Origin: an uncultured Oscillospiraceae bacterium
Lineage (GTDB): Bacteria; Bacillota; Clostridia; Oscillospirales; Oscillospiraceae
Length of the DNA: 34,101 bases
Assembly: GCA_947629955.1 (NCBI GenBank)
Contig: CANRFT010000023.1
Span: 1 to 34,101, forward strand
Direction of reading: 5' to 3'
Shown piece after piece: positions 9,116 to 33,984 of the stretch. Position 1 is the stretch's first letter. The number at the start of each line of letters is the position of its first letter. Below the pieces are notes generated by a model that saw only the letters and a program-made list of their open reading frames with translations, was not told the DNA's origin and made no database searches. Both the position numbers and the translations under genes were made by a program.

Positions 9116-9149
9116 AACCCTGCGGCGCGAAAAAGAAGGAGGTCACCAT

Positions 9150-10433: not shown

Positions 10434-10467
10434 GACGCCCCACATGACAGAAAACAAGGAGGTCACT

Positions 10468-11751: not shown

Positions 11752-11787
11752 GACGGATAGCGGGGCGAAAAAGAAGGAGGTCACCAT

Positions 11788-12957
11788 ATGAAAAAGACGC
11801 TCGCACTGCTGCTGGCGGCGCTGCTGACGCTCTCCGCCTGCGGGGGGCCGTCCGGCGGGCCCGCGGAGGACAGCGTTGACGCTGACCGGTCTTTTTCCCA
11901 TCTGGGCCTGCAATGCTGTGACACGGAGAACACGCTGTATTTCATAGCCGGCCAGACCATCTGTTACGTGGACAAGGACACCGGCATAGGCGGCCCGCTC
12001 TGCGGCAAACCGGAATGTACACACGACGGCCCGGACTGCGACGCCCTCCTCCCGGACGGTCAGGCGATCGGACTGAGCTACTACAGGGGCCGGCTTTACT
12101 GGTGCGACGACGATCCGCTCAACGGCTGCATCTATAGTATGGCGCCGGATGGTACAGACCGCCGCGCCGAGCGGGCGCTGGAGCGGGAACTGCTCCCAAT
12201 GAGTGCCCAGAACGAACGCGTGGTGATCCATCGCGGCTATGTCTATCTCTCCTGCGTGAAGGGCGGCATCGTGGACGGGGCGCGGAGAAACAGCCTCTAT
12301 GTGTGCGCTTTCCCGCTGGAGACAGACGGGGATGGATTTGTGATCCTTGACCGGGAGGTGGCCGGCGGAAGCGACGTCGCCGTACAGCCCTGGGGCGACG
12401 GACTCTACATTGTGGGGACCTCGTGCGTCAATTTCGACAGCGACGCCGGCGGCGAGCCGCCGGAACAGGTCCTGTATGACTTCTCAGTCCTCCGGTGGGA
12501 CGCCAAAGAAAAAACGCTGGAGGAACTGTGCCATAACGGCGGCGTTCCATTTTACTCTGTCAAGGAACTCTGGGTCGCGGAGGACGGCATAACGTTTTGC
12601 GGGATCACGCCGTCGGTGGCGGACATCTGGCATTTTGATTTCTCCACGGGCGAGCTTGAGTCGCGCGGCCCCTTTGAGGAGGAGCCGAACTGCCAGGCGG
12701 CGGTGTGGATCACGGACGGTTTGCTCACGGGCTGCGGGCCCGGCGGCTATATCGTGATCAGGGATCTCCAAGGGGAAACGTTGGTGGAGACCACGTTCCC
12801 GACCGGAGAGGACGCGGGCCGCTGGCGGCTGTGCGGCGCGGACGCCGGGCGGGTATTCTTCTGTTCCGATCATGAGGGGATAAGTATCATCGCTGTGCCG
12901 CTGGGCGGCGGCGAGATAAAAACGCTCTGTACCGTGAAAACGGATAGGGCGGTATAA
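11788..12957 (+). CDS. Lipoprotein of the tandem array, type C, last and shortest (389 aa)
   Basis: Shares the MKKTLALLLAALLTLSAC leader, but the mature part starts GGPSGGPAEDSVD and has diverged strongly from types A and B. The Cys/His block persists (Cys72, Cys77, His79, Cys84 in CGKPECTHDGPDC), as do the VDKDTG, YSMAPDGTDR and IIAVPLGGG strands, so it is a genuine family member. It has higher GC than its siblings, closer to the ABC genes that follow 23 nt downstream, and may be the ancestral member. No lipobox or active-site loss is seen. Confidence 0.87.
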   Translation: MKKTLALLLAALLTLSACGGPSGGPAEDSVDADRSFSHLGLQCCDTENTLYFIAGQTICYVDKDTGIGGPLCGKPECTHDGPDCDALLPDGQAIGLSYYRGRLYWCDDDPLNGCIYSMAPDGTDRRAERALERELLPMSAQNERVVIHRGYVYLSCVKGGIVDGARRNSLYVCAFPLETDGDGFVILDREVAGGSDVAVQPWGDGLYIVGTSCVNFDSDAGGEPPEQVLYDFSVLRWDAKEKTLEELCHNGGVPFYSVKELWVAEDGITFCGITPSVADIWHFDFSTGELESRGPFEEEPNCQAAVWITDGLLTGCGPGGYIVIRDLQGETLVETTFPTGEDAGRWRLCGADAGRVFFCSDHEGISIIAVPLGGGEIKTLCTVKTDRAV

Positions 12958-16046: not shown

Positions 16047-16068
16047 GGAAAAATGGCGCGAAGTCCGA

Positions 16069-16126
16069 TTGACATAGGCAGAAGAATATGCTATTTTATG
16101 CTAAAGTTAATCAAGTTAAACTTAAA
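16069..16126 (+). promoter_or_regulatory. Promoter and putative operator, copy 2 (BlaI-like/ABC operon)
   Basis: TTGACA at 16069-16074, 17-bp spacer, TATTTT at 16092-16097. Downstream are AAGTTAA at 16104-16110 and 16113-16119, and the palindrome AAGTTAAACTT at 16113-16123. Aligned with 3802-3860 it differs at 5 of 59 positions, only one of them in the operator-like part. It lies 62 nt before the start codon of the repressor gene, so autoregulation is the simplest reading. Confidence 0.82.
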
Positions 16127-16158
16127 CTATAAACACATATCTGCCTGGAGGTAGCGAA

Positions 16159-16578
16159 ATGAAACGCAAAATGCTGTCTGACAATGAGCTGGCCGTCATG
16201 AGCGTCCTGTGGGATGCCGGCGAGCCCCTGTCCCGTCCGGAGATCTTAGAGAAGCTCTCGGACAACGACTGGAACCCCAACTCCATCCATATGGTGCTGA
16301 ACAACCTGATCAAAAAGGAGATGGTGTTCATCGACGGCATCGTCCCCTGCGGGCAGAACTATGGCAGAGCGTATTCCGCGCTCAGGAGCCGGGAGGAGTA
16401 CGCGGCGGAGCTGGCTCTCAGCGCTATGCCCGACATGCCTCCGGAGGAGTGCCTGCCGGGGATCATCGGCGCGCTGGTCAAAAACGCCCCGCCGGATGCT
16501 AAGACCCTCGACCTGTTGGAAGGACTGCTGGCTCAACGGCGGAAAGAGCTGTCTGGCCTTTTGCCTCAGCAGGGGTGA
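16159..16578 (+). CDS. BlaI/MecI/CopY-family winged-helix repressor (139 aa)
   Basis: Predicted transcriptional repressor. Residues 6-75 are a winged helix with the family pattern LSDNELAVMSVLWDAGEPL, SRPEILEKL, then the recognition helix NPNSIHMVLNNLIKKEMV and a wing around FIDGIVPCGQNYGRAY. The C-terminal 60 residues are helical and would dimerise. GGAGGT precedes the ATG. Family members bind short palindromes at their own and target promoters; here the shared element at 3838-3857 and 16104-16123 is the obvious candidate. No BlaR1/MecR1-type sensor protease is encoded in the window, so the inducing signal must come some other way, or from elsewhere in the genome. It heads the second ABC cassette (83-nt gap). 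Confidence 0.88.
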   Translation: MKRKMLSDNELAVMSVLWDAGEPLSRPEILEKLSDNDWNPNSIHMVLNNLIKKEMVFIDGIVPCGQNYGRAYSALRSREEYAAELALSAMPDMPPEECLPGIIGALVKNAPPDAKTLDLLEGLLAQRRKELSGLLPQQG

Positions 16579-16660
16579 GCGATCGATCTGCGCCGCGCGG
16601 GATGCGCGGCTGTGATCCTGCGGGACAGCGAAGCAGGCGCAGGCTGAAAGGACATCGGGT

Positions 16661-17398
16661 ATGGAACTGAAACTGACCAATGTGCAAAAACGCTATGGCC
16701 AGCTCCTGGCCCTGCGGAACTTCTCCGTGACCTTTGAGCGGGGCATTTACGGCATCCTGGGGGCCAACGGCGCGGGCAAGACCACCATGATGAACCTCAT
16801 CACCGACAACATTAAACGGGACGGCGGTTCCATCACCTTTGACGGGCGGGAGATCCTGGAGATGGGCAGTGAGTTCCGGGGGCTGCTGGGCTATATGCCC
16901 CAGCAGCAGGGCATCTATGCAAACATGACCACCGAGAGCTTTGTCACCTATATTGGGCGGCTGAAGGGTCTGAAGGGAAAGAAACTGGCCGCCGGGGTGG
17001 ACGAGGTGCTGGAGCTCGCCAACCTCAACGGGATGCGGCACAAGAAGACGGGCCTCCTCTCCGGCGGGATGAAACAGCGGGTGCTGCTGGCCCAGGCGCT
17101 GCTGGGGGATCCCAAGGTACTTATTCTTGACGAGCCCACAGCGGGCCTGGACCCCAAGGAGCGGGTCCGCATCCGGGCCTTTATCAAAGAGCTGGCGGAG
17201 GATCGGATCGTGCTGCTCGCCACCCATATCGTCAGTGATATCGAGTCTATCGCGGATCAGGTGATGCTGATCAAGAACGGAAAACTGCTGCGCATGGCGC
17301 CCCCTGACGAACTCATCGCCGCGCTCCCGAAAGACTGGGAGCCGGTAGCCCACCATCTGAGCCTTGAGGACGTATACCTCTATTATCTGGGTGAATGA
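16661..17398 (+). CDS. ABC transporter ATP-binding protein, copy 2 (245 aa)
   Basis: Paralogue of the ATPase at 12981 with identical length. Walker A is GANGAGKTT, the signature LSGGMKQR, Walker B VLILDEPTAGLD, the switch His is in LLATHIVSDIES. The two align without gaps and are most alike from the signature through Walker B, with differences concentrated in the helical region (FVTYIGRLKGLKGKKLAAGVD). A hairpin-prone GC-rich spacer separates it from the repressor gene; the start is preceded by GAAAGGA. It should pair with the permease starting 1 nt after its stop, though cross-pairing with the first permease cannot be excluded. Confidence 0.95.
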   Translation: MELKLTNVQKRYGQLLALRNFSVTFERGIYGILGANGAGKTTMMNLITDNIKRDGGSITFDGREILEMGSEFRGLLGYMPQQQGIYANMTTESFVTYIGRLKGLKGKKLAAGVDEVLELANLNGMRHKKTGLLSGGMKQRVLLAQALLGDPKVLILDEPTAGLDPKERVRIRAFIKELAEDRIVLLATHIVSDIESIADQVMLIKNGKLLRMAPPDELIAALPKDWEPVAHHLSLEDVYLYYLGE

Positions 17399-17399
17399 T

Positions 17400-19739
17400 A
17401 TGGGCGAATGGAGGCGAGTTTTCGGCAACCCCCGGCGGCTTGCGGCCTTGGGCCTCATCGTTCTGCTGTCGGCGGTGTTCTTTGTTGTGGAGCGGATGGA
17501 TTACTTCGGGCGGGATTCGATATCTGTCCTGTTGGATGGCGAGCGGTATTATGCCGGCCTGACAGCCCGGCTGCGGGGACAGAGCCCGGAGGATATCGGG
17601 CAGTTCCTGGCGGACGAAGAACAGCTTTTGAATGATTACAGCAATTATCTGTTCGCCGCCGCCAACGGCGTGGACCCCACAGAGAGTATGTCCGCATCCC
17701 CTGAAGAAGTGGAGGCGGCTGCCAGGGAGCATGTGTATCTGTCCGCCCTGAAGGATATGGACGACGCCGCGGCCCATCGAAGGATCGATGTCGCGGCCAG
17801 CCGGGTCCAGGAACTCCGGGATGAGGCGAAGCACATCGCCGGGTACGCGGACTATTTGGATAACATCCAGGCCCAGGCCGAGCGGCAGGCCCAAACTGCT
17901 CTGTTCGGCAAAGAGAACAGCTTCACCCGCCGCAATCTTGCCCGCACGGCGGAGGAATTCGCCGCTCTGCGGGGAGTGAAGGTGGAATTCGGGGCCAACC
18001 GCGCCTTTGAGGGCTGGATCGATTATGAACTGGCTGATTACCTTTATCTGCTGGTAATAGTCATTTTCCTGTTTGCCTTTCTGGAGGAACGGGAGGCAGG
18101 ACTTTGGGGCGTGATCCGCACCTGCCGGGGCGGACGTCTGCCTTTAGGGCTCCAGCGGGCGGGCATTCTGTTCTGCGCCGCGGTGCTGGGGACGGTGCTG
18201 ATCTACGGCGTGGACCTGTTGTGTTCTCTGGTGCTGTCCGGCGGCTGGGACGATATGGGGCGCAGCGCCCAATCCCTGCTGGAGCTCCGCACCATGACCC
18301 GGCGGGTCACCATTGGCCAGTGGATCGTGGAATATCTGCTTGTCAAGGCGGCGTCAGGTTTTGCGGTAGGGTTGTTCCTGTGGTGCCTGCTGGACGTCAT
18401 CTTCAACGTGCAGTTCTCCCTGGCGGTGCTGCTGGTCCCGGTAGCGGTGGAGTATTCGCTGTTTACCTTCCTCCCGGTGCAGAGCATCCTGAATCCGTTG
18501 AAATATATCAATTTGTTTTCCTACATCAGGACGTCAGTGCTGTACACCCAATACCTGAACATGGACCTGCTGGGCTGGCCGGTGGGGGTGCGCCAGTTGG
18601 CGCTGACCGGCCTGCCGGTTTTGACCATTCTCTTCTTTGCCTGGGCCATGCTGCTCCAGCACCGGCGGCATCCGGCGGAGGACCGGGATATCCTCTCCGC
18701 CGCGGCCGGGGCATGGGACCGCTGGGCCGACCGTGTGCGGAAGCACTTTACCGCCGGCGGCTGGGAGATCTATAAAACGATGGTCTTCCAGTGGGGACTG
18801 TTGATCCTTATCGTGATCTTCCTGACCAGCGGCAACCAGAATTATATCCGCTACAGCACCGGCGTCGACAGAGATCCGGACTATGAGGAGTATCTGGAAG
18901 ATATCCAGGGCCCGCTGGACGGCTCGCTGGAGGATTACTTCGCCTCGGCCCGGGCCAACGCCGGCGGCGACGGGAAACTGCTCTCCGCCCTTGACCGGGT
19001 GGAGGCCCATGTGGCAGAGGTGCGCGCCAGGGCGGAGGCGGGGGGATATGAGCCCTGGATCGTGGCCTCCCAGTGGTATTATGAGAGCATCTATGGCGAG
19101 AACAGCCGGGACCTCCAGCGGATGAACGCGTCGGCGGCTATCGTGTTTCTGATCCTGTGCTGTTCCGGGTCCTGGGCCTTTGAGCAGCAGTCCGGCGTGG
19201 TGCTTATGGTGCGTTCCCTCCGACGGGGAAGGGGGAGCGTGTTTGCGGGGAAGCTGCTGTCGGCGGGACTGATGACCGCTTTTGTCTGGGCGATGGTGTA
19301 TGTGCGGGAATTTCTTGTGTTCGTCAGGCTTTTCCGCACCGCCGAGCTGGCCGCGCCGGTGGGCAATTTTGACACGATGGCTGGTTTCCCGCTGAATATC
19401 ACCATGGGGCAGTATTTGTTCCTTCTATATTTTCTGCGGTTCATGATGCTGTATCTGCTGGCCATGGTGATCCTGTTTGTGAGTCGGCAGGTCCCCACCG
19501 TTGAGCTGTCGCTGATCTTTAATTTCGTGCTGCTTGGTCTGCCCGGCGTGTTGTTTGCCTTGGGGATCGATATATTCGGCTTTCTCTCCCCGGTGATCCC
19601 CGTGTCCTCGGCAGAACTGCTGTGGGGTCTGCGCGACAGAGACGTTTCCTGCCTGGTGCCGTGGCTGATCTGGCTGGTCATAGGAGCAGCGGCGGGCTGC
19701 CTGACCTGGCGGGATTGGTGCGAAGGCCGCCGTGAGTGA
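17400..19739 (+). CDS. Fused two-half ABC permease, 12 predicted TM segments, copy 2 (779 aa)
   Basis: Paralogue of the permease at 13722: both start MGEW-K/R-RV, both carry QAERQ-S/A-QT and LFGKE..SFTRRNLA before TM2, and both have the FLEER loop after it. I start at 17400, one base after the ATPase stop, since this aligns the N-terminus with the first permease; an in-frame Met 12 codons earlier would overlap the ATPase. The first external domain is the most divergent region and is slightly longer here, consistent with a different ligand or partner lipoprotein. The second half again has TM, external domain, and a WAFEQQSGVVLMVRS loop like WAFERQAGVTPMLRS. Stop TGA at 19737-19739, then a terminator. 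Confidence 0.88.
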   Translation: MGEWRRVFGNPRRLAALGLIVLLSAVFFVVERMDYFGRDSISVLLDGERYYAGLTARLRGQSPEDIGQFLADEEQLLNDYSNYLFAAANGVDPTESMSASPEEVEAAAREHVYLSALKDMDDAAAHRRIDVAASRVQELRDEAKHIAGYADYLDNIQAQAERQAQTALFGKENSFTRRNLARTAEEFAALRGVKVEFGANRAFEGWIDYELADYLYLLVIVIFLFAFLEEREAGLWGVIRTCRGGRLPLGLQRAGILFCAAVLGTVLIYGVDLLCSLVLSGGWDDMGRSAQSLLELRTMTRRVTIGQWIVEYLLVKAASGFAVGLFLWCLLDVIFNVQFSLAVLLVPVAVEYSLFTFLPVQSILNPLKYINLFSYIRTSVLYTQYLNMDLLGWPVGVRQLALTGLPVLTILFFAWAMLLQHRRHPAEDRDILSAAAGAWDRWADRVRKHFTAGGWEIYKTMVFQWGLLILIVIFLTSGNQNYIRYSTGVDRDPDYEEYLEDIQGPLDGSLEDYFASARANAGGDGKLLSALDRVEAHVAEVRARAEAGGYEPWIVASQWYYESIYGENSRDLQRMNASAAIVFLILCCSGSWAFEQQSGVVLMVRSLRRGRGSVFAGKLLSAGLMTAFVWAMVYVREFLVFVRLFRTAELAAPVGNFDTMAGFPLNITMGQYLFLLYFLRFMMLYLLAMVILFVSRQVPTVELSLIFNFVLLGLPGVLFALGIDIFGFLSPVIPVSSAELLWGLRDRDVSCLVPWLIWLVIGAAAGCLTWRDWCEGRRE

Positions 19740-19786
19740 CACGGAGATTAACAACAGGCAAATGTTCTCTCATGTTCCGGATACAG

Positions 19787-19820
19787 GGGGGCCGCGCTTT
19801 GCGCGGCCCCCTGGCGTTTT
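19787..19820 (+). terminator. Terminator of the second ABC cassette
   Basis: Perfect 11-bp stem GGGGGCCGCGC (19787-19797), loop TTT, GCGCGGCCCCC (19801-19811), then TGGCGTTTT. It starts 48 bases after the permease stop. The T-run is short but the stem is very stable. Confidence 0.75.
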
Positions 19821-19936
19821 CCAGTATATCAGCGGGGGGTGAGCTGCTGCCATGATTGTGTATCCGTTCAATTATACGCTTTTAGCGATGAAATCGGATA
19901 AAGGGGATGATGGTACTGAAACCCACATATAAAACA

Positions 19937-19964
19937 CAGCACCACAGTTTAAACTGTGGTGCTG
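19937..19964. repeat. Perfect 28-bp palindrome
   Basis: Arms CAGCACCACAGT (19937-19948) and ACTGTGGTGCTG (19953-19964) around TTAA; the whole 28 bp is self-complementary. It could be a bidirectional terminator between the converging ABC and TIR operons (AAAACA before, GTTATGTG after; no strong U-tract) or a binding/recombination site. Confidence 0.75.
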
Positions 19965-19995
19965 TTATGTGTAAAGACAGATTATCGTCTCTACA

Positions 19996-20056
19996 GGAGT
20001 TGCCTTCGGAAACAGTTTAGAGCGTTCATGGCTATAAAGCCAGATTTGGCCTTTAA
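19996..20056 (+). pseudogene. Remnant of a second Ada-like gene (3' end only)
   Basis: About 60 bases align with 3046-3120 of the intact Ada-like gene. TGCCTTCGGAAACAGT is shared exactly, followed by GTTCATGG, an internal deletion of about 13 bases, TATAA, and the gene end reading TTTGGCCTTTAA against TTTGGTCTTTAA. The intact gene's CGNCLRK region is lost upstream. Homology continues past the stop to about 20137 (GTTGCACTCGGATCTGAG against ATTGCACTCGAACCTAAT). No reading frame is preserved. Confidence 0.75.
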
Positions 20057-20206
20057 ATGGGCAATAAATCAAAGAGTTCATTTGTGAATGACACGCACGG
20101 CCTGGGTTGCACTCGGATCTGAGGCCCGATTTTTACTCCGAAAAACGGCCTACCGCGGCCTCTGTATGGGAGCTGGCTGACGGCAGGATCGCCATCTTTT
20201 TGGTCC

Positions 20207-23098
20207 TTATCGCGGCAGCAGTTCCCGCAGTTCGGCGGCCCGGTCGTGCAAACCGGCCTTCTCACAGGTCTCGATCAGATGCCGCAAGGTCTTCAGCGTG
20301 CTTCGGTGGTCCAGGCCCAGCACCTTGCGGCGCAGCGCGTAGGCGGTTTCAAGGAGCTCCGCCGACCTCCGGCTGTTCCCCAGCTCCCCATACGTGACCC
20401 CCAGATTGTTCAGCGTGGTCAGCGTACCCGGGTGCTCCTCACCCAGCACCTTGCGGCGCAGGGCATACACTTTTTCCTCCAGCTCCGCCTCCTTCCGGTG
20501 GTCCCCCAGTTCGCCGTATATCACCGCCAGGTTGTTCAATGCAGTCAGCGTGTCCGGATGCTCCTCCCCCAGCGTCCTGCACTGCGCGCGGTACAGCGCG
20601 TCCCGCAGCTCCAGCTCCCTCCCGCGGTCGCCCGCCCTGCCGCAGATTTGCGCCAGGGATCTCTGCACCCATAAGGTGAACTCAGTTTCCGCCCCCATCC
20701 ATTGGCGGCTGAGCTGCCAGGCCCGCTCCATGCGCGCAAGCCCCGCCTGGATGTCGCCGGCGGCGCTCAGGGCCCAGGCCAGGTTGACCATCGCCGAGAT
20801 GGTCAGACTGTGTCCCTCTCCCAGCGCCTCACGAAAGACCCGGTAGGCCTGCTCCTCCAGGGCCGCCGTGCGCAGGCTGTCATCCAGATTTCTGTACACG
20901 GACGCCAGGGCGTTCAGCGCCGCGGACGTGTTAGGGTGCTCCGCCCCCCGCGTCCTTCGGAGGAGCTGATACTCCTCTGTCCGCAGCTCCCACACCCGCC
21001 GCTGCTCCCCAAGCTTGTCGCAGACACGGATCAGTCTGCGCAGAACCGCCAGCGTGTCCGGATGCTCCTCCCCCAGCACCCTTCGGCGCAGCGCGTACGC
21101 TTTTTCGACCAGCTCCGCCTCCTTCCGGTGATCCCCCAGTTCGCCATATGTCACCGCCAGATTGCCCAGCACGGTCAGCGTTTGGGGGTGTTCCTCGCCC
21201 AGCGCTTTGCAGTGCAGCGCATACGCTTTTTCGCCCAGCTCCACCGCTTTCCGGCGGTCGCCCAGTCTGCTATACGAAGCCGCCAGACTGCTCAGCGCGG
21301 TCAGCGTATCCGGGTGTTCCTCGCCCAGCACTTTGCGGCGCAGCGCATACACTTTTTCCCACAGATCCGTCGCTTTCCGGTGGTCGTCCAGTCTCCTGTA
21401 GATGGCCGCCAGAATGTTCAGCGAGTTCAGCGTGTCCGGGTGTTCCTCCCCCAGCGTCTTGCGGCGCAGCGCATACACCTTTTCCTCCATCTCCAGCCCT
21501 TTCTGGTGGTCGCCCAGCCTGTCATAGACGACCGCCAGATTGCCCATAATGGTCAGCGTGCTCGGGTGTTCCTCGCCCAGCGATTTGCGGCGCAGCGCAT
21601 ACGCTTTTTTCCCCAGCTCCACCGCTTTCCGGTAGTCGCCCAGCATGATGCAGGCGGCCGTCAGATTGTTCAGTACGGCCAGCGTATTCTGGTGTTCCTC
21701 CCCCAGCTTCTCACAGCAGAGCGCATACGCGCTTTCATTCCGCTCCACCGCCTTCTGGTAATCGCCCACCCGGCAGTAGTCAGCCGCCAGATTGCCCAGC
21801 ACGGCCAATGTGACCGACGGCTCTACCCCCTGGACCTTGCGGCAGAGCGCGATCAGTTCTTCGTTCAACTCCAGCGCCCTTTGGTACTCCCCCACATGGT
21901 CATAGTCAAGCGCCAGCGCCCCCAGCGCGGCGAGCGTCTGGGGGTCCTCCCTGCCCAGATTCCGGACATAGTAATCCGCCAGCCGTTGGCCCCATTTCAG
22001 CGCCTCCCGGAAGTTCAGCGGAACGCCGGTGCCGCCGCGGTACATCATCCTGAGCTTTTCCATGGCCTCGGGCAGCTCCGCCTCCGCCGCGCCGGTGATG
22101 AGCTCCAGCCCCCGCGCCCGGTCCACCTCCACGTCGATGCCGTCCAGGTAGGCCAGGCCGATGAGGTAGTTGTGGGCCGGGTCGCCATCGTTCTCCCGGA
22201 CGGCGATCCGGCTCAGCGCCTCCGCCAGCCGCTCCCGGAAGGCCTCCTCTTCCCGGGCGTCCACGCAGTCGGGCAGACCGGCGTATTGGCGCATCAGCGC
22301 CTCCCGGTCCGTGGCCGCCATCTCCGCCGGGATGACCGGCTTCCCGGCCTCGTGGGCCGCCGGGTACTCCACCGACTGGACATAGTTGGGCTCGTTCACC
22401 AGATTGGGCGTCACCAGCAGGGTGAACAACTCGCTCTTTTCCAGCGCGTCCCGGATGGCGTCATTGAAGCTCTCGCCGGGGGTCAGGAACTCGTCGTACC
22501 AGATGGCGATGTCCCGGCAGACGGGGTTGGCGTGGATGAGGCGCATCAGCTCGTTGGCGTACCTCCGGTCCTTTTTGCGATAGCTCAGGAAGATATAGGC
22601 GTCAAAGGCCGCCCGGACCCGATCTGCCAGCTCGTCGCTGACCAGCACGGATTCCAGGTACCGCTTCAGCTTTTCCTCGTAGCTGATCGCGGTGGCGTCG
22701 TGGCTGCAGGGGGCCAGGTACTGGAGTTCCCCGAATCGGTCCGGCCTGCTGTAGATCTCGTCCAGTCCGGGCTCCAGCATGACGGGCAGCACGGGGATGT
22801 GCTTCTCCTTCGCGAAGGGGAAGTCCCCGTCCATAGCCCGGTTGGGGGTGCTCAGCAGCCGGAGGGTGACCGGGATGAGAAAGAGGTTCATCCGCTCCAG
22901 GTCCACCGTCCGGAGCTCCTCCGGCAGCGGGACGCTCATGTCCTCCGCGTAATAGATTGCGCAGTCATGGGATTTGAAAATATCTTCACAGATCCGGTCA
23001 AAGGATCGGCTAAAATCCTCCGGATGGCAGGTGAAATATACTCTGGGCTTCCCCTGGGGGCTGGCATTGCCTTTGGTCCTGACTTTTAAACTGTCCAT
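20207..23098 (-). CDS. Double-TIR protein with 13 kinesin-light-chain-type TPRs (963 aa)
   Basis: Residues 18-110 form a first, degenerate TIR-like domain (PRVYFTCHPEDFSRSF; AIYYAEDMSVPLP). Residues 166-300 form a canonical one (AYIFLSYRKKDRRYANEL; DIAIWYDEFLTPGESF; NYVQSVEYPAAHE), with Glu244 at the place of the catalytic Glu of NAD-cleaving TIRs. Residues 305-380 contain Sel1-like repeats (YLIGLAYLDGIDVE). Residues 388-933 are thirteen gapless 42-residue TPRs, many with ALRRKVLGEEHPDTL, plus a 30-residue cap. No NTPase domain is present, unlike its two operon partners. GGAGG lies 6 nt upstream of the ATG. It is last in the operon, 200 nt after the second STAND gene. A scaffold/effector role in an NLR-like immune pathway is inference. 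Confidence 0.9.
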   Translation of the reverse strand: MDSLKVRTKGNASPQGKPRVYFTCHPEDFSRSFDRICEDIFKSHDCAIYYAEDMSVPLPEELRTVDLERMNLFLIPVTLRLLSTPNRAMDGDFPFAKEKHIPVLPVMLEPGLDEIYSRPDRFGELQYLAPCSHDATAISYEEKLKRYLESVLVSDELADRVRAAFDAYIFLSYRKKDRRYANELMRLIHANPVCRDIAIWYDEFLTPGESFNDAIRDALEKSELFTLLVTPNLVNEPNYVQSVEYPAAHEAGKPVIPAEMAATDREALMRQYAGLPDCVDAREEEAFRERLAEALSRIAVRENDGDPAHNYLIGLAYLDGIDVEVDRARGLELITGAAEAELPEAMEKLRMMYRGGTGVPLNFREALKWGQRLADYYVRNLGREDPQTLAALGALALDYDHVGEYQRALELNEELIALCRKVQGVEPSVTLAVLGNLAADYCRVGDYQKAVERNESAYALCCEKLGEEHQNTLAVLNNLTAACIMLGDYRKAVELGKKAYALRRKSLGEEHPSTLTIMGNLAVVYDRLGDHQKGLEMEEKVYALRRKTLGEEHPDTLNSLNILAAIYRRLDDHRKATDLWEKVYALRRKVLGEEHPDTLTALSSLAASYSRLGDRRKAVELGEKAYALHCKALGEEHPQTLTVLGNLAVTYGELGDHRKEAELVEKAYALRRRVLGEEHPDTLAVLRRLIRVCDKLGEQRRVWELRTEEYQLLRRTRGAEHPNTSAALNALASVYRNLDDSLRTAALEEQAYRVFREALGEGHSLTISAMVNLAWALSAAGDIQAGLARMERAWQLSRQWMGAETEFTLWVQRSLAQICGRAGDRGRELELRDALYRAQCRTLGEEHPDTLTALNNLAVIYGELGDHRKEAELEEKVYALRRKVLGEEHPGTLTTLNNLGVTYGELGNSRRSAELLETAYALRRKVLGLDHRSTLKTLRHLIETCEKAGLHDRAAELRELLPR
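20300..21937 (-). repeat. Thirteen tandem 126-bp coding repeats (TPR array)
   Basis: Each unit encodes one 42-residue TPR with no indels across 1,638 bp (13 x 126). On the plus strand the recurring words include GGTGTTCCTC and TTGCGGCGCA. Units 8-11 are the most degenerate; units 3-7 and 12-13 are the most alike, implying recent unit duplication or conversion. Confidence 0.85.
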
Positions 23099-23126
23099 AA
23101 CTGCCTCCGGTCGTTTTGATTGCCCC

Positions 23127-23157
23127 GGCCCATCCCTCGGGCCGATCTGCGTCGGCC
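23127..23157 (-). other. Two mutually exclusive hairpins upstream of the TIR/TPR gene
   Basis: In the transcript (minus strand), GGCCGA/TCGGCC (23157-23152 with 23145-23140) and CGGCCC/GGGCCG (23144-23139 with 23131-23126) overlap, so only one can form at a time. They lie about 30 nt before the start of the 963-aa gene. No U-tract follows, so an attenuator is not demonstrated. Confidence 0.4.
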
Positions 23158-23298
23158 TGCGCCCGCCAGCCGGTCACCGTTCGGCGTTCTCCGCCATCCG
23201 GCGGGAGAGGAAGGTGACGGACCGACTGCGGACCCCCTCTCCGTGCGGGGCGTGTCAGCCGATGTTGGCCAGGGTCCGCTGCTCCAGCCGGGTGAAGT

Positions 23299-25656
23299 TC
23301 AGCTTATGTAGATGGCTGCCGCCTGGGTGTAGCTGCCCACGGCGCGCTCCTCGTCGCCCATGGCCCGGTAGATGTTGCCCTGATAAACAAGAGCGGCGGC
23401 AACGCCCTCTCCCTCGCTGCCCCCATTGAGCAGCACAAACTCATATGCCTGCCGGGTGAGCTCCAACGCCTCGTCGAACCTGCCCTGCTTCATCCGGACC
23501 TGCCCCAGGATCTCCTTGCTGAAGCAGGCGCTCCACGCATCCCCGACCTCGGCAAACAGGGCGAGGGCGTGCTGAATGCGGCGGTCGGCCTCGTCGAGTT
23601 CGCCCGCCATGTGCAGCGCCTTTGCCAGGTGGAACTCCGACCAGCCGATGGCGTCCTGAGGCGTGGAGTGATAGAACTTCTCGTCCATCTCCACCGCCAT
23701 GCGCCCGTAGCGGACGGCGGCCTCGTAGTCGCCCAGGCCCCAGCTGGATTCGCTCAGGCGGAGCAGCAGCTCCCGGCAGAGATAGCCCTCCTCCCGGCTG
23801 AGCTGGTCCTGCGGTATGTTCCGGACCAGTTCATACCCCTCGCCGGCGGTCTCCCGGCAGGCGGCTGACTCGCCGCCCAGCACCTGGCAGTGGGACAGGT
23901 GGTTATACAGGTACAACTTCTCCTCCAGCGTCTGGGGCGTGTCCAGCAGTTCCCGGCAGAGGCGGACGCTGGCCGCGAACAGATTCACGTGTTCACAGGA
24001 CAGAGCCCGCATCAGCAGGGCCTTCCGCCGCAAGGGGTGCCCCTCCGGGAGCCGCTGAACGACCGCCCCGGTCATGTCCAGCAGATACATCTTCCGCTGG
24101 TAGCTCTCTTTATAGACGGCGTTCACCGCCTCCTCCAGCGCCTCCAGGAATTTGTTGCAGCTGTCCGGGTCGGCGGCCAGCTGCTCCTGGCACAGATCGG
24201 CCACCAGGGGGTGGAGGTGGACCTCGTCGGTGGCCGGGTTGTGGATGACCCAGCTCTTTTTGATGAGCTCGTCGATCACGTCGAAATCGTCCGCCCCGCA
24301 CCAGTCGAACAGGGTCTCTACCTCGATGCCGCTCAGCGGCACCAGCACCAGATTCTTCAGCAGGTACTGCTCCTCCTCGCTGAGGGTGGACAGCCGAAAC
24401 ACCTCTTTCAGCTGGCCGAAGATCATATCCGCCGCTTTCACGTTCTCCCTCGCCATATTGGCCGCGCCGCTTTTCAGCAGCCCGGCCATCTTCTCCGGCT
24501 GGATGCGCCGATGCTGCATGGCCGACGCCACCAGCCGGATGCTCAGGGTGTGCCCGTTCAGCTGCCGGATGATGCCCTTTACCTGCTCCAAAGCGGCGGC
24601 GTCCAGCGTCCGGGTGTACTCCGCCTGGAACAGGGCCAGCAGTTCGGCTTCGTCGGTCATCTCCGTGACCTCTACCTCCGGCAGGCCCGTCCCCTCCTGG
24701 TGGCAGCGGGTGGTGAACAGCACGGCATATCTCCCGGCGCAGAAGTCCTCCAGATCTGGGTCCTCTGTCACGTCGAAGTTGTCGATGACCAGGAGGACGC
24801 GCTGATCCGAGATCTCCTTGAGCACCCGCAGCTTCCGCTGGAAGTACGCCCGGTCGCCGTCCTCCGGGAAGTCCGCGCGGCTCAGGCCCTGGATGGGGAA
24901 GGTGTAGTCGTTGATGACCGTCTGCTCCAGGCTCCCGGCGAAGGACACCCAGAGGATCACGTCATAGTCGGCCTGGTGCCGTTTGAGGTACATCTTGGCG
25001 ATCTCGCTCTTGCCGATGCCCCCCATGCCCACCAGGAACATCTTGTTCTCCGCCCCGGTGAGGGCTGTATGGATGCCGGTCAGCTCCCGCTCCCGGCCCA
25101 CAAAGTGCCCGTCCGGGTAGACCATGGACCCGGTGAGCCGGTAGCTCTTCCCCTCCGGGGCGGCGGCCCCCTCCTGGGGCGCGGCATTTTCTTCGGGGAT
25201 GGTGACGGTCCGGCCGGCGCTCTTGCCCAGGATCGCCGATATGCGGTCTACCAGCTCCTGGACCCGTTGCACCTCCGGGGGCAGGCTTCCGTTCATGATG
25301 TGGATGCGGCCCAGGTAGTAGTACACGTCGTCGCTCAACTGGCAGTCGTCGATACGGAAGGGGAGAAGGGTGATGTCCTCGTGGTTTTTGAAGCGGTCGA
25401 AGGCGCAGTTGACCTCGTTGAGCACGTGGGCCGACAGGTTGGACTCCTTGTTCAGGATCAGGAGGAACACCCGGCAGGCCCGGATGGCTTCCACGATGGA
25501 CTGGGCGTAGTTGGCCCCCACGTTCCGGGGAGCGTACCAGCAGGCGATGCCCGCGCCCTCCAGGGCGGCGCAGATCTTCCGCACCTCCTCCCCGGCGCTG
25601 TCGGTGTGGTAGCTGATGAATACCTCCCGGGGCTCGCTCTGTGTATGTTCTGTCAT
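23299..25656 (-). CDS. TIR-NB-ARC-TPR STAND protein, second copy, C-terminus clipped (785 aa)
   Basis: NLR-like protein. The TIR domain is residues about 10-140 (REVFISYHTDS; candidate catalytic Glu81 in SAHVLNEVNCAF). Then come VGRERELTGI, a P-loop GMGGIGKS (210-217), Walker B LLVIDNFD, LFTTR, LNGHTLSIRL (the GLPLA-like position) and HLHPLV (the MHD-like position). TPRs follow from about 505 (GDYEAAVRYGRMAV; GRFDEALELTRQAYEF). Such proteins oligomerise on sensing a ligand and activate the TIR. The ATG (25656) overlaps the upstream stop as ATGA with GGAGGG before it; an upstream in-frame Met lies in the previous gene and is rejected. A one-base deletion near 23307 relative to the first copy gives an early stop; restoring it would add KLNFTRLEQRTLANIG and stop at 23255. 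Confidence 0.92.
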   Translation of the reverse strand: MTEHTQSEPREVFISYHTDSAGEEVRKICAALEGAGIACWYAPRNVGANYAQSIVEAIRACRVFLLILNKESNLSAHVLNEVNCAFDRFKNHEDITLLPFRIDDCQLSDDVYYYLGRIHIMNGSLPPEVQRVQELVDRISAILGKSAGRTVTIPEENAAPQEGAAAPEGKSYRLTGSMVYPDGHFVGRERELTGIHTALTGAENKMFLVGMGGIGKSEIAKMYLKRHQADYDVILWVSFAGSLEQTVINDYTFPIQGLSRADFPEDGDRAYFQRKLRVLKEISDQRVLLVIDNFDVTEDPDLEDFCAGRYAVLFTTRCHQEGTGLPEVEVTEMTDEAELLALFQAEYTRTLDAAALEQVKGIIRQLNGHTLSIRLVASAMQHRRIQPEKMAGLLKSGAANMARENVKAADMIFGQLKEVFRLSTLSEEEQYLLKNLVLVPLSGIEVETLFDWCGADDFDVIDELIKKSWVIHNPATDEVHLHPLVADLCQEQLAADPDSCNKFLEALEEAVNAVYKESYQRKMYLLDMTGAVVQRLPEGHPLRRKALLMRALSCEHVNLFAASVRLCRELLDTPQTLEEKLYLYNHLSHCQVLGGESAACRETAGEGYELVRNIPQDQLSREEGYLCRELLLRLSESSWGLGDYEAAVRYGRMAVEMDEKFYHSTPQDAIGWSEFHLAKALHMAGELDEADRRIQHALALFAEVGDAWSACFSKEILGQVRMKQGRFDEALELTRQAYEFVLLNGGSEGEGVAAALVYQGNIYRAMGDEERAVGSYTQAAAIYIS
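24137..25543 (-). repeat. 1.4-kb near-identical block, copy in the second STAND gene
   Basis: Aligns without gaps to 26557-27963 (constant offset 2420). It covers the TIR from CWYAPRNVG through the NB-ARC to the winged-helix/HPLV region. At protein level I count about 22 differences over roughly 465 residues. Similarity drops abruptly at both ends. Confidence 0.88.
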
Positions 25657-28055
25657 ATGGTGTCCCTCCTCAGGATGGCCAGAGTCTGCTGCTCCAGCCG
25701 GGTGAAGTTCAGCTTGTGATAGATGGCCGCCGCCTGGGTGTAACTGCCCTTGGCCCGCTCCTCGTCGCCCATGGCCCGGTAGATGTTGCCCTGCCACACC
25801 AGGTTGGCGGCGATGTCCAAGTGCTCTTTGCCGACGCGGGGGATGAGGATATCGCGGGCCTTCTGATTCAGCTCCAGCGCCTCGGTAAAGTTCCCCTGTT
25901 TCATCAGGATCTGCCCCAGGATATCAAAGCAGAAACTTTGAGAGTACTCGTCGTCGATCTCCTGGAACAGGGAGACCGCATGGCGCATCCAGTGCTCGCT
26001 CTCGTCCAGGTCGCCGCTCATGTAGAGCGCCCGGCCCAGATGGTACTCCGACCACCCCAGGGTCCCGCTGCGGCCAGAGCTGGAGGAGGCATGGAACCGG
26101 CCCCCGAGATCGACCACCTTGCGCCCGTAGTAGATGGCCGTCTCATAGTCGCCCAGGTCCCGGTTGGACTCGATCAGCCGGTGGAGCAGTTCCACATAGA
26201 GGCACCCCTGGTCCATGGTGAGCTGGTCCAGCGGCACATCCTCCACCAGGGCGTAGCCCTCCCGGGCGATATCCCTGCACTCCGCCGGGCGGCCGGACAG
26301 GGCCTTGAGGTGGGCCAGTTCGTTATAGACCCGCAACTTGTCCGCCAGGTCCTCCGCCGTCTCCATCAGCTCCCGGTAAATGGCGGAGCATTTGTCATAG
26401 AGGCACAGCTCGGAACACAGCCACGCCCTGGCCTGGAGCGCCTGTCTGCGCCTGGGGTGCCCCGCGGGCAGCCGCTCACTGGCGGTGTCAGCGACGGCCA
26501 TGACCTGCTGTTTCCACTCGTAGCTGGAGCCGCTGACCCGCTCCGCCGCGTCCAGCAGCGCCTCCAGGAACTGATTGCAGCAGTCCGGGTCGGCGGCCAG
26601 CTGCTCCTGGCACAGGTCGGCCACCAGGGGGTGGAGGTGGACCTCGTCGGTGGCCGGGTTGTGGATGACCCAGCTTTTTTTGATGAGCTCGTCGATGACG
26701 TCGAAGTCGTCCGCCCCGCACCAGTCAAAGAGGGTCTCCACCTCGATGCCGCTGAGGGGCACCAGCACCAGGTTTTTCAGCAGGTACTGCTCCTCCTCGC
26801 TGAGGGTGGACAGCCGGAAAACCTCTCTCAGCTGGCCGAAGATCATGTCGGCCGCTTTTACATTTTCTTTTGCCATGTTGGCCGCGCCGCTTTTCAGCAT
26901 TCCGGCCATCTTCTCCGGCTGGATGCGCCGATGCTGCATGGCCGACGCCACCAACCGGATGCTCAGGGTGTGCCCGTTCAGCTGCCGGATGATGCCCTTT
27001 ACCTGCTCCAAAGCGGCGGCGTCCAGCGTCCGGGTGTACTCCGCCTGGAACAGGGCCAGCAGTTCGGCTTCGTCGGTCATCTCCGTGACCTCTACCTCCG
27101 GCAGGCCCGTCCCCTCCTGGTGGCAGCGGGTGGTGAACAGCACGGCATATCTCCCGGCGCAGAAGTCCTCCAGATCTGGGTCCTCTGTCACGTCGAAGTT
27201 GTCGATGACCAGGAGGACGCGCCGGTCCGAGATCTCCTTGAGCACCCGCAGCTTCCGTTGGAAGTACGCCCGGTCGTCGTCTTCCGGGAAATCCATGCGG
27301 CTCAGGCCCTGGATGGGGAAGGCATAGTCGTTGATGATCGTCTGCTCCAGGCTCCCGGCGAAAGATACCCAGAGGATCACGTCGTAGTCAGTCTGGTGCC
27401 GCTTGAGGTACATCTTGGCAATCTCGCTCTTGCCGATACCGCCCATGCCCACCAGGAACATCTTGTTCTCCGCCCCCGTGAGGGCTGTATGGATGCCGGT
27501 CAGCTCCCGCTCCCGGCCCACAAAGTGCCCGTCCGGGTAGACCATGGAGCCGGTGAGGCGGTAGGTCTTCCCCTCCGGGGCGGCCGTCCCGCCCTGGGGC
27601 GAACTATTTTCCTCAGAGATGGTGACGGTCCGCCCGGCGCTTTTGCCCAGGATGACCGAGACCCGGTCCACCAGCTCCTGCACCCGCTGGATCTCCGGGG
27701 GCAGGGCGCCGTTCATGATGTGGATGCGGCCCAGGTAGTAGTACACGTCGTCGCTCAACTGGCAGTCGTCGATGCGGAAGGGGAGAAGGGTGATGTCCTC
27801 GTGGTTTTTGAAGCGGTCGAAGGCGCAGTTGACCTCGTTGAGCACATGGGCCGACAGGTTGGACTCCTTGTTCAGGATCAGGAGGAACACCCGGCAGGCC
27901 CGGATGGCCTCCACGATGGACTGGGCATAGTTGGCCCCCACGTTCCGGGGGGCGTACCAGCAGCGGACGCCCACGCCCTCCAGACGGTTGACCACCGCCT
28001 CCACCACGGCGCGGGACGAGTTGGTGTGATAGCTGATAAAGACGTCGATCTCCAT
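25653..28055 (-). CDS. TIR-NB-ARC-TPR STAND protein, first copy (800 aa)
   Basis: First gene of the TIR operon. TIR at residues 3-135: DVFISYHTNSS, CWYAPRNVGANY, LLILNKESNLSAHVLNEVN with Glu74 as candidate NADase residue, DVYYYLGRIHIM. The linker at 140-175 is rich in Ser/Pro/Gly. NB-ARC at 178-480: VGRERELTGI, P-loop GMGGIGKS (203-210), Walker B LLVIDNFD (281-288), TTR (308-310), HPLV (475-478). The C-terminal 300 residues carry irregular TPRs (GDYETAIYYGRKVV; LGRALYMSGDLDESEHWM; GNIYRAMGDEERAKGSYTQAA). AGGAGG lies 7 nt upstream of the ATG at 28055; an in-frame Met 14 codons earlier precedes this site. The transcript should start near 28108. The ligand is unknown; anti-phage or other abortive immunity is a hypothesis from architecture. 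Confidence 0.93.
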   Translation of the reverse strand: MEIDVFISYHTNSSRAVVEAVVNRLEGVGVRCWYAPRNVGANYAQSIVEAIRACRVFLLILNKESNLSAHVLNEVNCAFDRFKNHEDITLLPFRIDDCQLSDDVYYYLGRIHIMNGALPPEIQRVQELVDRVSVILGKSAGRTVTISEENSSPQGGTAAPEGKTYRLTGSMVYPDGHFVGRERELTGIHTALTGAENKMFLVGMGGIGKSEIAKMYLKRHQTDYDVILWVSFAGSLEQTIINDYAFPIQGLSRMDFPEDDDRAYFQRKLRVLKEISDRRVLLVIDNFDVTEDPDLEDFCAGRYAVLFTTRCHQEGTGLPEVEVTEMTDEAELLALFQAEYTRTLDAAALEQVKGIIRQLNGHTLSIRLVASAMQHRRIQPEKMAGMLKSGAANMAKENVKAADMIFGQLREVFRLSTLSEEEQYLLKNLVLVPLSGIEVETLFDWCGADDFDVIDELIKKSWVIHNPATDEVHLHPLVADLCQEQLAADPDCCNQFLEALLDAAERVSGSSYEWKQQVMAVADTASERLPAGHPRRRQALQARAWLCSELCLYDKCSAIYRELMETAEDLADKLRVYNELAHLKALSGRPAECRDIAREGYALVEDVPLDQLTMDQGCLYVELLHRLIESNRDLGDYETAIYYGRKVVDLGGRFHASSSSGRSGTLGWSEYHLGRALYMSGDLDESEHWMRHAVSLFQEIDDEYSQSFCFDILGQILMKQGNFTEALELNQKARDILIPRVGKEHLDIAANLVWQGNIYRAMGDEERAKGSYTQAAAIYHKLNFTRLEQQTLAILRRDTI
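26557..27963 (-). repeat. 1.4-kb near-identical block, copy in the first STAND gene
   Basis: Partner of 24137-25543. The segment homogenised is exactly effector plus NTPase. Outside it, the first 32 residues and the TPR half have only moderate similarity, until the last 25 or so residues (GNIYRAMGDEERA.GSYTQAAAIY), which again match closely. Confidence 0.88.
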
Positions 28056-28114
28056 GATGACTCCTCCTGCTCTCAGGCGCCTCCACCGGGCGCGCATTCG
28101 ATGTACCGCATTAA

Positions 28115-28143
28115 ATTATAGCACGTCCCACAGGACCCTTCAA
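28115..28143 (-). promoter_or_regulatory. Promoter of the TIR operon
   Basis: On the minus strand TTGAAG (28143-28138), exactly 17 bp, TATAAT (28120-28115), with TGC before the -10 (extended -10). The spacer holds GTCC-CACA-GGAC (28125-28136), an inverted repeat that could be an operator for the divergent GntR regulator. The expected start near 28108 leaves a leader of about 50 nt. Confidence 0.85.
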
Positions 28144-28217
28144 GAAAATTGTTCCGGTATGTCCGTGCGGGGCCCCGATCCCGGCGCCGTTTTTGATTTT
28201 TCCTCGCGTGTTTTTTC

Positions 28218-31590: not shown

Positions 31591-33984
31591 ATGAAAAGAA
31601 TAGCGTTTTTACTGGCCTTCTGCTTGGCGCTTTTCTGCGTTGCCTGCGGGACAGCGGCAGGGATCAGCGGAGCGGAAGAACAAACGGCAAATGCTGTCCC
31701 GCTGAGCAACACATCAACACAGGACAGTTTTACGGATGTTCCCACCGACGCCTGGTATGCCGAGGCGGTGATATGGTGTCGGGAGAACGGGATCATGAGC
31801 GGCACATCTGAGAGTAAATTTTCGCCCGATGAGCCTATGTCCCGCGCTATGTTGGCCACAGTTCTCTGGAGAAGAGAAAACAGTCCCCTGGTGGATCATG
31901 CCATGGATTTCTCTGATGTCCAAACCGATACCTGGTATACCGAGGCCGTGCGCTGGGCGTCCTCTGAGGGTGTTATGAGCGGGTATGGCAATGGTTCATT
32001 CGGCGTGGACGACCCGGTGACCCGTGAGCAATTTACAACCGTCCTCTGGCGCTATGCGGATTCCCCAGACGGTGGGGAGGCGGAAACATTTGCGGATGAA
32101 AGTGCGATCTCACCCTGGGCGAAAGACGCAGTAAAATGGGCAAGGGCAAACGGCATTATAGGCGGTAAAGGCGAAAACCGCTTCGATCCCAAAGGCAACG
32201 CCACGAGAGCGGAGGCGGCGATGATTTTGTATAACTTCTTCCGTCGTCAGACTACCAATCCGCAAAACGCGAAAATCCTGGTGGCCTATTTCTCCTGCAC
32301 CAATACCACCGAGGGCGTGGCGGAGCAGATTGCGGACTATCTGGACGCTGACCTTTTTGAGATCGTCCCGGAGATTCCCTATACCGAGGCCGATTTGGAC
32401 TATTACAGCGGCGGCCGGGCGGATCAAGAACAGGCGGACCCAACAGCGCGGCCGACTATCGCAAACAGCGTGGAGGGCGTGGATAATTACGACATCGTGT
32501 TCCTGGGCTACCCCATCTGGCACGGCCAGGCTCCCAAAATTATATATACTTTCCTGGAAAGCTACGATTTTGCCGGGAAAACCATCGTCCCCTTCTGCAC
32601 CTCTCATTCCAGCGGCATCGGCTCCAGCGCAGACAACCTCCACGGCCTTGCCTCGGATGCAGCCGAGTGGCTGGCGGGCAGGCGCTTCGGAAGCGGCGCG
32701 GCGGCGACAGAAATTCAGGGATGGATCGATGAACTTGACCTTCCGCTTACAAAGGAGGTTCCCACATTGCCTTATGACGGAATTTATCCGGAGCATGAGC
32801 CCTACGGCACAGGCATCGGCGCCATGCCGGGGCGCGTGGCCTGGGCCTGGGACCCGGACAGCGTGGAATGGGACGGGAGCGGCTATTGGTGGGAGCTTGA
32901 CCACTTTGACGAGAGCGTCATCTTGAATATGGTCAACGACTCCATTGCAACTCTTGGCGGTAAAGAGAACACCCGTGACGGCTGGAGCACGCTATTTTCT
33001 TATCGCAACGGCGGTAAGGGCTACCAAGCGGGAGAGAAGATCGCCGTCAAGGCCAACATCAACGGCTCCGCCGTCTATGACGACGACACCTCCGGCGAGA
33101 CGAAAATGAGCTACACGAACCCCGTTCTGCTGAAAACCTTGCTCACATCACTGGTAGAGGAAGCCGGTGCCGCGCCGGAGGACATCACCGTCTATGACGT
33201 GTCCCGGCTTTTCCCGGACCACATGGTGGAGATGTGTACCGAAGGAGAATTGAAAGGCGTCCGCTTCGCGGACCGGGACACCGGCGTGGCGGACGAGTCC
33301 GCCCCCATTGTCTGGTCACATTCTTTCAGCGGAAAGGTCAACTACCTCCCCACCTGCGTCACTGAGGCGACGTATGTCATCAATCTGGCCAATCTCAAAG
33401 GACACAGCTACGGGATCACGCTGTGCGGCAAAAACCACTTTGGTTCCTTCATCAACGGCAACACCATGCGTCCGCCGGAGGGCGCAAACCTTCATCAATG
33501 GCTCACCCGAAACGAGATGGGTATTTACAGTCCTCTTGTTGACCTTATGGCAAACGCTGACCTTGGCGGTAAAACGGTGCTGTATATGCTGGACGCCTTG
33601 ATTTGCGCCCCCAGCGAGGGGGCCTCCATCACTGGAGGCAATTCCAGATGGCAGCAGGCACCCTTTAACGGGGATTACACATCAAGCGTGTTTGTCTCTC
33701 AGGACCCGGTGGCCATTGACAGTGTGGGTGCGGATTTCCTGATGAACGAACCGACAGTCACGGATAATAACGGAGCGCTGCGCGGCGATCCCACGGTAGA
33801 AAATTATCTGCATGAGGCTGGACTTGTCGGGAACGCGCCGTCCGGCACAATCTACACGGATAGTCAGGGGCATACAGTCACGAACTTGGGTGTCCATGAG
33901 CATTGGTGCAACTCTACGGAAAAGCTGTATAGCCGTAATCTCGGAAAAAGCGAAGGTATCGAACTGATTCAAATTTCAAAGTAA
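31591..33984 (+). CDS. SLH - flavodoxin - DUF362 fusion, predicted lipoprotein (797 aa)
   Basis: Secretion signal 1-19 with a probable but unusual lipobox (FCVAC, Cys19). Three SLH-type repeats span about 46-97 (FTDVPTDAWYAEAV), 107-157 (FSDVQTDTWYTEAV) and 167-219 (FADESAISPWAKDAV), which would attach the protein to the cell wall. A flavodoxin-like domain spans 227-395 (KILVAYFSCTNTTEGVAEQI with the FMN-phosphate loop; IVFLGYPIWHGQAPK; FCTSHSSGIG). A DUF362-type domain runs from about 418 to the end (MPGRVAWAWDPDSVEWDG; LKGHSYGITLCGKNHFG; FVSQDPVAIDSVGADF), with few Cys and so no obvious Fe-S cluster. It starts 14 nt after the hydrolase stop, last in the operon. An extracytoplasmic electron-transfer role is suggested but unproven. 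Confidence 0.9.
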   Translation: MKRIAFLLAFCLALFCVACGTAAGISGAEEQTANAVPLSNTSTQDSFTDVPTDAWYAEAVIWCRENGIMSGTSESKFSPDEPMSRAMLATVLWRRENSPLVDHAMDFSDVQTDTWYTEAVRWASSEGVMSGYGNGSFGVDDPVTREQFTTVLWRYADSPDGGEAETFADESAISPWAKDAVKWARANGIIGGKGENRFDPKGNATRAEAAMILYNFFRRQTTNPQNAKILVAYFSCTNTTEGVAEQIADYLDADLFEIVPEIPYTEADLDYYSGGRADQEQADPTARPTIANSVEGVDNYDIVFLGYPIWHGQAPKIIYTFLESYDFAGKTIVPFCTSHSSGIGSSADNLHGLASDAAEWLAGRRFGSGAAATEIQGWIDELDLPLTKEVPTLPYDGIYPEHEPYGTGIGAMPGRVAWAWDPDSVEWDGSGYWWELDHFDESVILNMVNDSIATLGGKENTRDGWSTLFSYRNGGKGYQAGEKIAVKANINGSAVYDDDTSGETKMSYTNPVLLKTLLTSLVEEAGAAPEDITVYDVSRLFPDHMVEMCTEGELKGVRFADRDTGVADESAPIVWSHSFSGKVNYLPTCVTEATYVINLANLKGHSYGITLCGKNHFGSFINGNTMRPPEGANLHQWLTRNEMGIYSPLVDLMANADLGGKTVLYMLDALICAPSEGASITGGNSRWQQAPFNGDYTSSVFVSQDPVAIDSVGADFLMNEPTVTDNNGALRGDPTVENYLHEAGLVGNAPSGTIYTDSQGHTVTNLGVHEHWCNSTEKLYSRNLGKSEGIELIQISK

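Follow-up and report, generated by a model that had tools for sequence, protein, structure and literature searches.

Bacterial proteins that combine an N-terminal TIR domain, a central AP-ATPase (NB-ARC) and C-terminal tetratricopeptide repeats (TPRs) have been described by Kaur et al. (2020, PMC7159879) as components of conflict systems, next to systems of the peptide-processing and vWA/MoxR types. The sensors of antiviral STAND proteins, TPRs included, are described as binding phage proteins (PMC10907252). Here, a locus of three TIR genes from an uncultured Oscillospiraceae bacterium, probably a gut inhabitant, was analyzed; the window comprises the entire 34,101-base contig C23 (CANRFT010000023.1) of a 2.2 Mb genome that is distributed over 75 contigs. 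The initial annotation had described three neighbouring minus-strand TIR genes, and this observation was confirmed as a whole (Table 1). Genes 1 and 2 have the domain order given by Kaur et al., whereas, unlike in the systems described there, no peptide-processing or vWA/MoxR domain was identified in the 22 window open reading frames (chosen from 72) that were scanned with Pfam at E = 1e-5. With moderate confidence, we interpret the locus as a small island of TIR receptors from two separate families, in which each protein would act as a self-contained sensor and probable NADase against phage. This interpretation draws directly on the domains, the catalytic residues, the modelled folds, the combination of a constant module with a changing sensor, the step in divergence between the two, and the independent occurrence of the families.

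Genes 1 and 2 code for TIR/NB-ARC/TPR proteins of NLR architecture. As in NLR-like STAND proteins, both contain an N-terminal effector domain, a central NTPase with P-loop and Walker B motifs, and a C-terminal repeat sensor (TPR_12, E = 4.6e-17 and 1.1e-15, respectively). The catalytic TIR glutamate was kept in all ten TIR-NB-ARC proteins compared, the window genes included. A 305-aa protein from a same-genus genome (L057, 2410-3327) is built from two gene 1-type TIR domains.

At the DNA level, genes 1 and 2 are 98-100% identical over parts of the TIR and NB-ARC regions, with an exact stretch of 268 bases in common, and beyond about residue 495, immediately after the conserved LHPLVADLCQEQLAADPD stretch, the identity drops to 56-73%. 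The same identity step was observed between gene 2 and its counterpart in the same-genus genome G030. Among gene 1, gene 2 and the second G030 gene, the synonymous divergence (dS) amounted to 0.20-0.36 in the linker and NB-ARC region, 0.76-1.26 in the sensor (residues 497-755), and 0.25-0.32 in the last 26-28 codons. As selection at the protein level alone is not expected to raise synonymous divergence, recombination that swapped the sensors, or homogenized their flanks, is the simplest cause. The 5' end of gene 1 is 97% identical at the nucleotide level to the first G030 gene over the first 23 residues, and its remainder resembles the second G030 gene. The gene pair of the distant genome G637, which belongs to another family of the class, showed TIR windows of 92, 75 and 74% identity and later windows of 14-48%.

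Gene 3 differs from this architecture. No NTPase family was matched by Pfam at E = 1 or better, and the central NTPase of an NLR-like protein is thus missing. The initial annotation was right in assigning a second TIR domain and no NTPase to this protein, and where it listed 13 uniform TPRs, 14 in-phase units of 42 residues were found, 13 of which are full. A relative of gene 3 was encoded by 378 of 517 pattern stretches obtained from a scan of 84,980 species genomes, and the family is large and mainly found in Clostridia; the best 80 were kept as 79 loci, with shortened flanks in many of them. Among 86 aligned members, the catalytic position of TIR1 is occupied by Asp in 61, Glu in 19 and other residues in 6, and TIR2 carries the glutamate expected of a TIR NADase in each of them, the window gene included. 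The TIR2 profile aligns to the NAD hydrolase AbTIR. A TPR_12 match in the C-terminal part was present in 75 of the 79 members scanned, again including gene 3. The 13 full TPR units of gene 3 have a mean identity of 44%, and five positions that line the groove in TPR structures vary more than the other TPR positions (entropy 2.26 versus 1.37 bits, P = 0.006).

For the gene 3 family, 89 genes were compared, giving 58 pairs with N modules at least 80% identical. Among the 40 pairs listed (N module at least 83%), the TPR arrays were less than 50% identical in 33; three of the other seven rest on fewer than 75 codons. Both outcomes are illustrated by L066/L075, with 92% identity in the N module and 40% in the sensor, and by L069/L072, with 92% in both. 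Both families combine a conserved TIR module with a changing TPR sensor. Tandem arrays of gene 3 relatives were found at five of the 79 loci, with four genes in a row at L069, three at L097, and two each at L072, L086 and L131. The RGIG1744 genome has five gene 3 relatives on five contigs (L076, L082, L084, L091, L112), representing an expanded repertoire.

Gene 3 scored 353.6 with the NCBIfam model FxSxx_TPR (NF040586, FxSxx-COOH system TPR protein; cut-off 300), and genes 1 and 2 scored 105.5 and 99.1. The assignment of gene 3 to this protein was rejected: it has no NTPase, and the best of its three matching stretches covers model positions 390-625 of 830. As gene 3 passes the cut-off without an NTPase, automatic annotation may misname it.

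Table 1. Positions of the regulatory elements, genes and domains of the TIR locus in the window.
Feature	Position	Strand	Remark
Promoter TTGAAG-17-TATAAT, TG before -10	28115..28143	-	10/12 matches
Gene 1, TIR - NB-ARC - TPR, 800 aa	25653..28055	-	ATG start at 28055 behind AGGAGG
Gene 1 TIR, catalytic-type Glu74	27750..28043	-	
Gene 1 NB-ARC NTPase, P-loop GGIGKS, Walker B LLVIDNFD	26889..27467	-	
Gene 1 variable C-terminal TPR sensor, from about residue 497	25656..26567	-	
Gene 2, TIR - NB-ARC - TPR, 785 aa	23299..25656	-	ATGA overlap with gene 1
Gene 2 TIR, catalytic-type Glu81	25327..25623	-	
Gene 2 NB-ARC NTPase	24472..25047	-	model fits Apaf-1 and the plant NLR NRC1
Tail homologous to gene 1 end, in a different frame after the early stop codon of gene 2	23256..23298	-	
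Gene 3, TIR-like - TIR - Sel1 - TPR, 963 aa, no NTPase	20207..23098	-	
Gene 3 TIR1, TIR fold, Asp92 at catalytic position	22640..23047	-	
Gene 3 TIR2, Glu244	22229..22594	-	Glu invariant in 86/86 aligned family members
Gene 3 Sel1 repeat	21974..22069	-	
Gene 3 TPR array, 14 in-phase 42-residue kinesin-light-chain-like units, last shortened	20210..21955	-	
Hairpin, 13-pair stem and T-rich tail, candidate terminator	19936..19965	-	about 240 bases behind gene 3

The layout given in the initial annotation was confirmed in that one promoter-like minus-strand site lies before gene 1, with none onward to the end of gene 3, and an ATGA overlap joins genes 1 and 2. The gap between genes 2 and 3 amounts to 200 bases. 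Neither promoter-like sites nor hairpins were much more numerous than in shuffled sequences. No TIR_2 genes other than these three were found in the genome.

The recurrence of the trio was analyzed in 394 genomes of the order and 391 of the class, two samples that overlap. The three genes adjoined in one genome of each sample, the window both times. The initial interpretation was supported in part only, and the claim of a new conserved three-gene system was not borne out. In the order sample, the TIR-NB-ARC profile matched 15 genomes (TIR and NB-ARC in six, NB-ARC alone in nine) and the gene 3 profile 18. Both families occurred in G000 and G148 only, in the latter on separate contigs, which is no excess over expectation (2 versus 0.69, P = 0.15). 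In the class sample, the profiles matched 13 and 8 genomes, respectively, and both families were found in G000 and G674 (2 versus 0.27 expected, P = 0.026, with the window counted).

G030 contains the same promoter, with hexamers identical to those of the window, followed by two TIR-NB-ARC-TPR genes; the homology starts just upstream of the -35 element and spans window positions 23267-28145. Within the 40 kb compared, gene 3 remained unmatched and the flanking genes gave matches only to generic ABC ATPases (24-33% identity); in the rest of G030, the only match to the gene 3 query was of the Sel1 type. With promoter and gene pair present in G030 and gene 3 missing, the promoter and the two NB-ARC receptors look like a single unit, either inherited or mobile, and gene 3 seems to have been acquired separately or lost from G030. 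Literature searches retrieved no named system with this three-gene combination in the sources as far as they were covered.

The clustering of TIR genes is not peculiar to the window, and such receptor clusters recur. Other kinds of TIR gene were present at nine of the 79 gene 3 loci (L086, L089, L100, L111, L119, L120, L130, L135, L137), and none of these neighbours was clearly TIR-NB-ARC-TPR. Only at L086, with two gene 3 relatives nearby, did a neighbour match our NB-ARC profile (15577-20793, 1738 aa, 76 bits), but this candidate was rejected as Pfam assigned TIR and SecA-like domains to it. For the clustering tests, rough expected values were derived from genome size and hand-entered gene counts with contig ends ignored; the tests were small, the window itself had been picked for being a cluster, and a partial gene 3 relative (G435:C20) and the G478 NB-ARC gene, split across two contigs, were left out. 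Another kind of TIR gene lay within 5 kb of four of the 27 gene 3 family genes (20 genomes). Leaving out the window, this applied to 3 of 26 (0.29 expected), with P values of 0.003, 0.022 and 0.060 at 5, 10 and 15 kb. For the NB-ARC family, likewise without the window, a non-paralogous TIR gene was located within 10 kb in two of ten genomes (0.21 expected, P = 0.019) and within 5 kb in one (P = 0.10).

The TIR partners of gene 3 relatives differ: in G099 (L208), a TIR-Sel1 gene lies approximately 18 bases upstream, and in G178 and G386 other TIR genes are found. In G674, all four TIR_2 genes found lie within 24 kb, the two families being 17 kb apart. A minus-strand operon in G637 (L212, 353-6909) comprises an NTPase-free TIR-Sel1 gene (547 aa) and the two TIR-NB-ARC-TPR genes mentioned above, with gaps of approximately 16 and 58 bases, and holds all three TIR_2 genes found in that genome. 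It is this operon that most closely parallels the window and speaks most strongly for retaining the idea of a shared partner, although its TIR-Sel1 protein is from another family.

The search for relatives on mobile elements gave three weak partial matches to gene 1 in phage records, two gene 3 family loci and one distant NB-ARC family locus on viral contigs, and none in plasmid DNA by megablast, which detects near matches only. At L140 (8508-12502), an integrase gene immediately precedes a gene 3 relative; the phage contig also carries genes for tail, holin, endolysin and DnaC-loader proteins, an arrangement as would be expected for prophage cargo. With PADLOC models, gene 3 weakly matched ThsB (E = 2e-6) and TIR-SAVED (E = 6.7e-7), and genes 1 and 2 weakly matched ThsB (E = 0.009 and 0.035), in each case over the TIR. 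No Avs model, which the PADLOC library presumably contains, was among the matches of the three proteins at E = 0.1.

The window further contains a phage-type integrase (187-1269) and a tRNA-Arg (cct) gene (3441-3517) near the contig end, possibly an integration site for the genes that follow. On the plus strand (3903-12957), seven tandem paralogues of 389-443 aa without Pfam match at 1e-5 were identified; two are 88% identical, four 72-87%, and one is more distant, with approximately 30-36% identity between groups. Next come two ABC ATPases with 73% identity, a pair of large proteins (774 and 791 aa) that share 44% identity and lack a Pfam match, and a BlaI-type repressor. A 797-aa protein with S-layer homology, flavodoxin and DUF362 domains is encoded at 31591-33984.

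For the three proteins, we infer a ligand, an NADase activity, oligomerization, a role in phage defence and a function of TIR1 as follows. In the products of genes 1 and 2, the C-terminal TPR sensor would bind a foreign, most likely phage, protein, upon which the NB-ARC NTPase would open and oligomerize; the clustered TIR domains would then cleave nicotinamide adenine dinucleotide (NAD) and halt the cell ahead of phage multiplication. For gene 3, the Sel1/TPR superhelix would serve as sensor, TIR2 as the enzyme, and TIR1, usually with Asp in place of Glu, as a structural or inhibitory partner. As gene 3 has no NTPase, it must switch by another route, and the pairing of TIR1 and TIR2 within a single chain is the obvious candidate for this. 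More tentatively, gut Clostridia may possess a repertoire of receptors that lack an NTPase, with a largely inactive TIR restraining a live NADase TIR and an expandable TPR array reading the ligand. This repertoire could diversify, to some extent within tandem arrays, through replacement of the sensor while the TIR module is kept. The receptors would share TIR islands with NB-ARC receptors that diversify alike, a bacterial parallel to plant and fungal NLR clusters.

Several observations weigh against the interpretation as an island of phage-directed receptors with exchanged sensors. No PADLOC model spans any of the three proteins over its length. Neighbours of both families (10 of 73 listed for TIR-NB-ARC and 95 of 123 for gene 3) gave scattered PADLOC matches without a consistent defence context: one of the ten matched weakly, to a viperin model, and among the 95 the commonest family, mad3, matched two (36 families matched, of which 25 were listed). 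The phage contig represents a single locus. TPR arrays evolve fast in general and repeat alignments may slip, so that the gene 3 family comparison overstates divergence to some extent, and many of the 40 pairs stem from a few related genomes. Finally, some exposed TPR positions of gene 3 outside the groove are more variable than the groove positions.

According to the initial annotation, the three genes would form one co-operating unit, in which the NTPase-free double-TIR protein joins TIR assemblies begun by either NB-ARC sensor. The common promoter, the ATGA overlap, the single end hairpin and the confinement of all TIR_2 genes found in the genome to this locus are in line with such a unit, as are the G637 operon with no further TIR_2 gene found in that genome, the adjacent TIR-Sel1 gene in G099, the proximity of both families in G674 and the excess of genomes with both families in the class sample. 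It appears unlikely nevertheless: the exact trio occurs in the window only, the order sample showed no excess, G030 has the gene pair without gene 3, the partner in G637 comes from another family, and none of the TIR genes at the nine gene 3 loci clearly encodes a TIR-NB-ARC-TPR protein. Alternatively, the TIR domains could, as in Thoeris, signal to a separate effector through a product of the cyclic ADP-ribose type instead of simply depleting NAD. The weak ThsB and TIR-SAVED matches over the TIR and the alignment of TIR2 to AbTIR point in this direction, but we consider it quite unlikely, with no ThsA-like gene recognized among the 22 window open reading frames scanned, although an effector could lie elsewhere. 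The assignment of the locus to Thoeris was rejected in view of the weakness of the ThsB matches and the lack of a recognized ThsA-like partner among these frames.

A function as signal transducers or scaffolds of the cell itself, in regulation or development, would fit to the TPR-STAND relatives AfsR and PH0952 and to the FxSxx_TPR score of gene 3 above the cut-off. The patchy distribution (15 and 18 of 394 genomes), the tandem arrays with changing sensors, the relative on a phage contig and the fact that no conserved neighbour was noticed among the loci looked at render it distinctly improbable. An assembly error involving near-identical repeats could be suspected behind the mosaic of genes 1 and 2, given their 268-base exact stretch and the number of contigs. 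It is highly improbable in view of the G030 genes, the first and second of which have no 25-base word in common, yet gene 1 resembles one and then the other; moreover, the sensors of all three copies are mutually different.

The island of self-contained TIR receptors that we favour can be compared with a number of known systems. Like genes 1 and 2, plant TIR-NLRs (Roq1, RPP1) combine TIR and NB-ARC; with the A2 profile, Roq1 was matched across the two domains (E = 3.4e-8). The sensor of the plant proteins is leucine-rich, whereas genes 1 and 2 are bacterial and have a TPR sensor. The best Foldseek match of gene 2 was PH0952 (PDB 6mfv), a STAND ATPase with a TPR sensor (666 columns, E = 5.7e-14); it covers residues 174-785, the TIR of gene 2 having no counterpart. 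The match to a TPR protein with a TIR-like start (PDB 9m0n) is limited to its first 101 or 102 residues, and this protein was absent from the 50 fold matches listed, although a likeness may exist. The Avs5 antiviral STAND proteins are described with C-terminal sensors that include TPR and Sel1-like repeats, and with an nSTAND3-type NTPase (PMC12931631), in contrast to the NB-ARC of genes 1 and 2 and the NTPase-free gene 3. By its description, actinobacterial TIR group 6 (Toshchakov and Neuwald 2020, PMC7075850) resembles gene 3 in its N-terminal TIR and many C-terminal TPRs, whereas gene 3 has two TIRs and a Sel1 repeat. The best solved matches of gene 3 were kinesin-light-chain-like repeats, including Podospora 4y6w. 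Dyrka et al. (2014, PMC4986451) describe fungal NLRs with TPR sensors as repeat receptors whose concave TPR positions vary; gene 3 differs from them by the missing NTPase and by units that are 44% identical, compared with 85% for the "high internal conservation" referred to there.

Proteins of the TIR-NB-ARC-TPR kind are known from bacteria, and genes 1 and 2 provide a clear case in which copies exchanged their sensors. Less charted is the gene 3 family, a widespread double-TIR receptor without NTPase, in which one TIR has the catalytic glutamate and the other usually does not. It offers a simple system for the question of how a TIR enzyme can be switched on by a repeat sensor in the absence of a nucleotide switch, and it bears on whether receptor diversification in clusters, as seen in plants and fungi, also takes place in bacteria.

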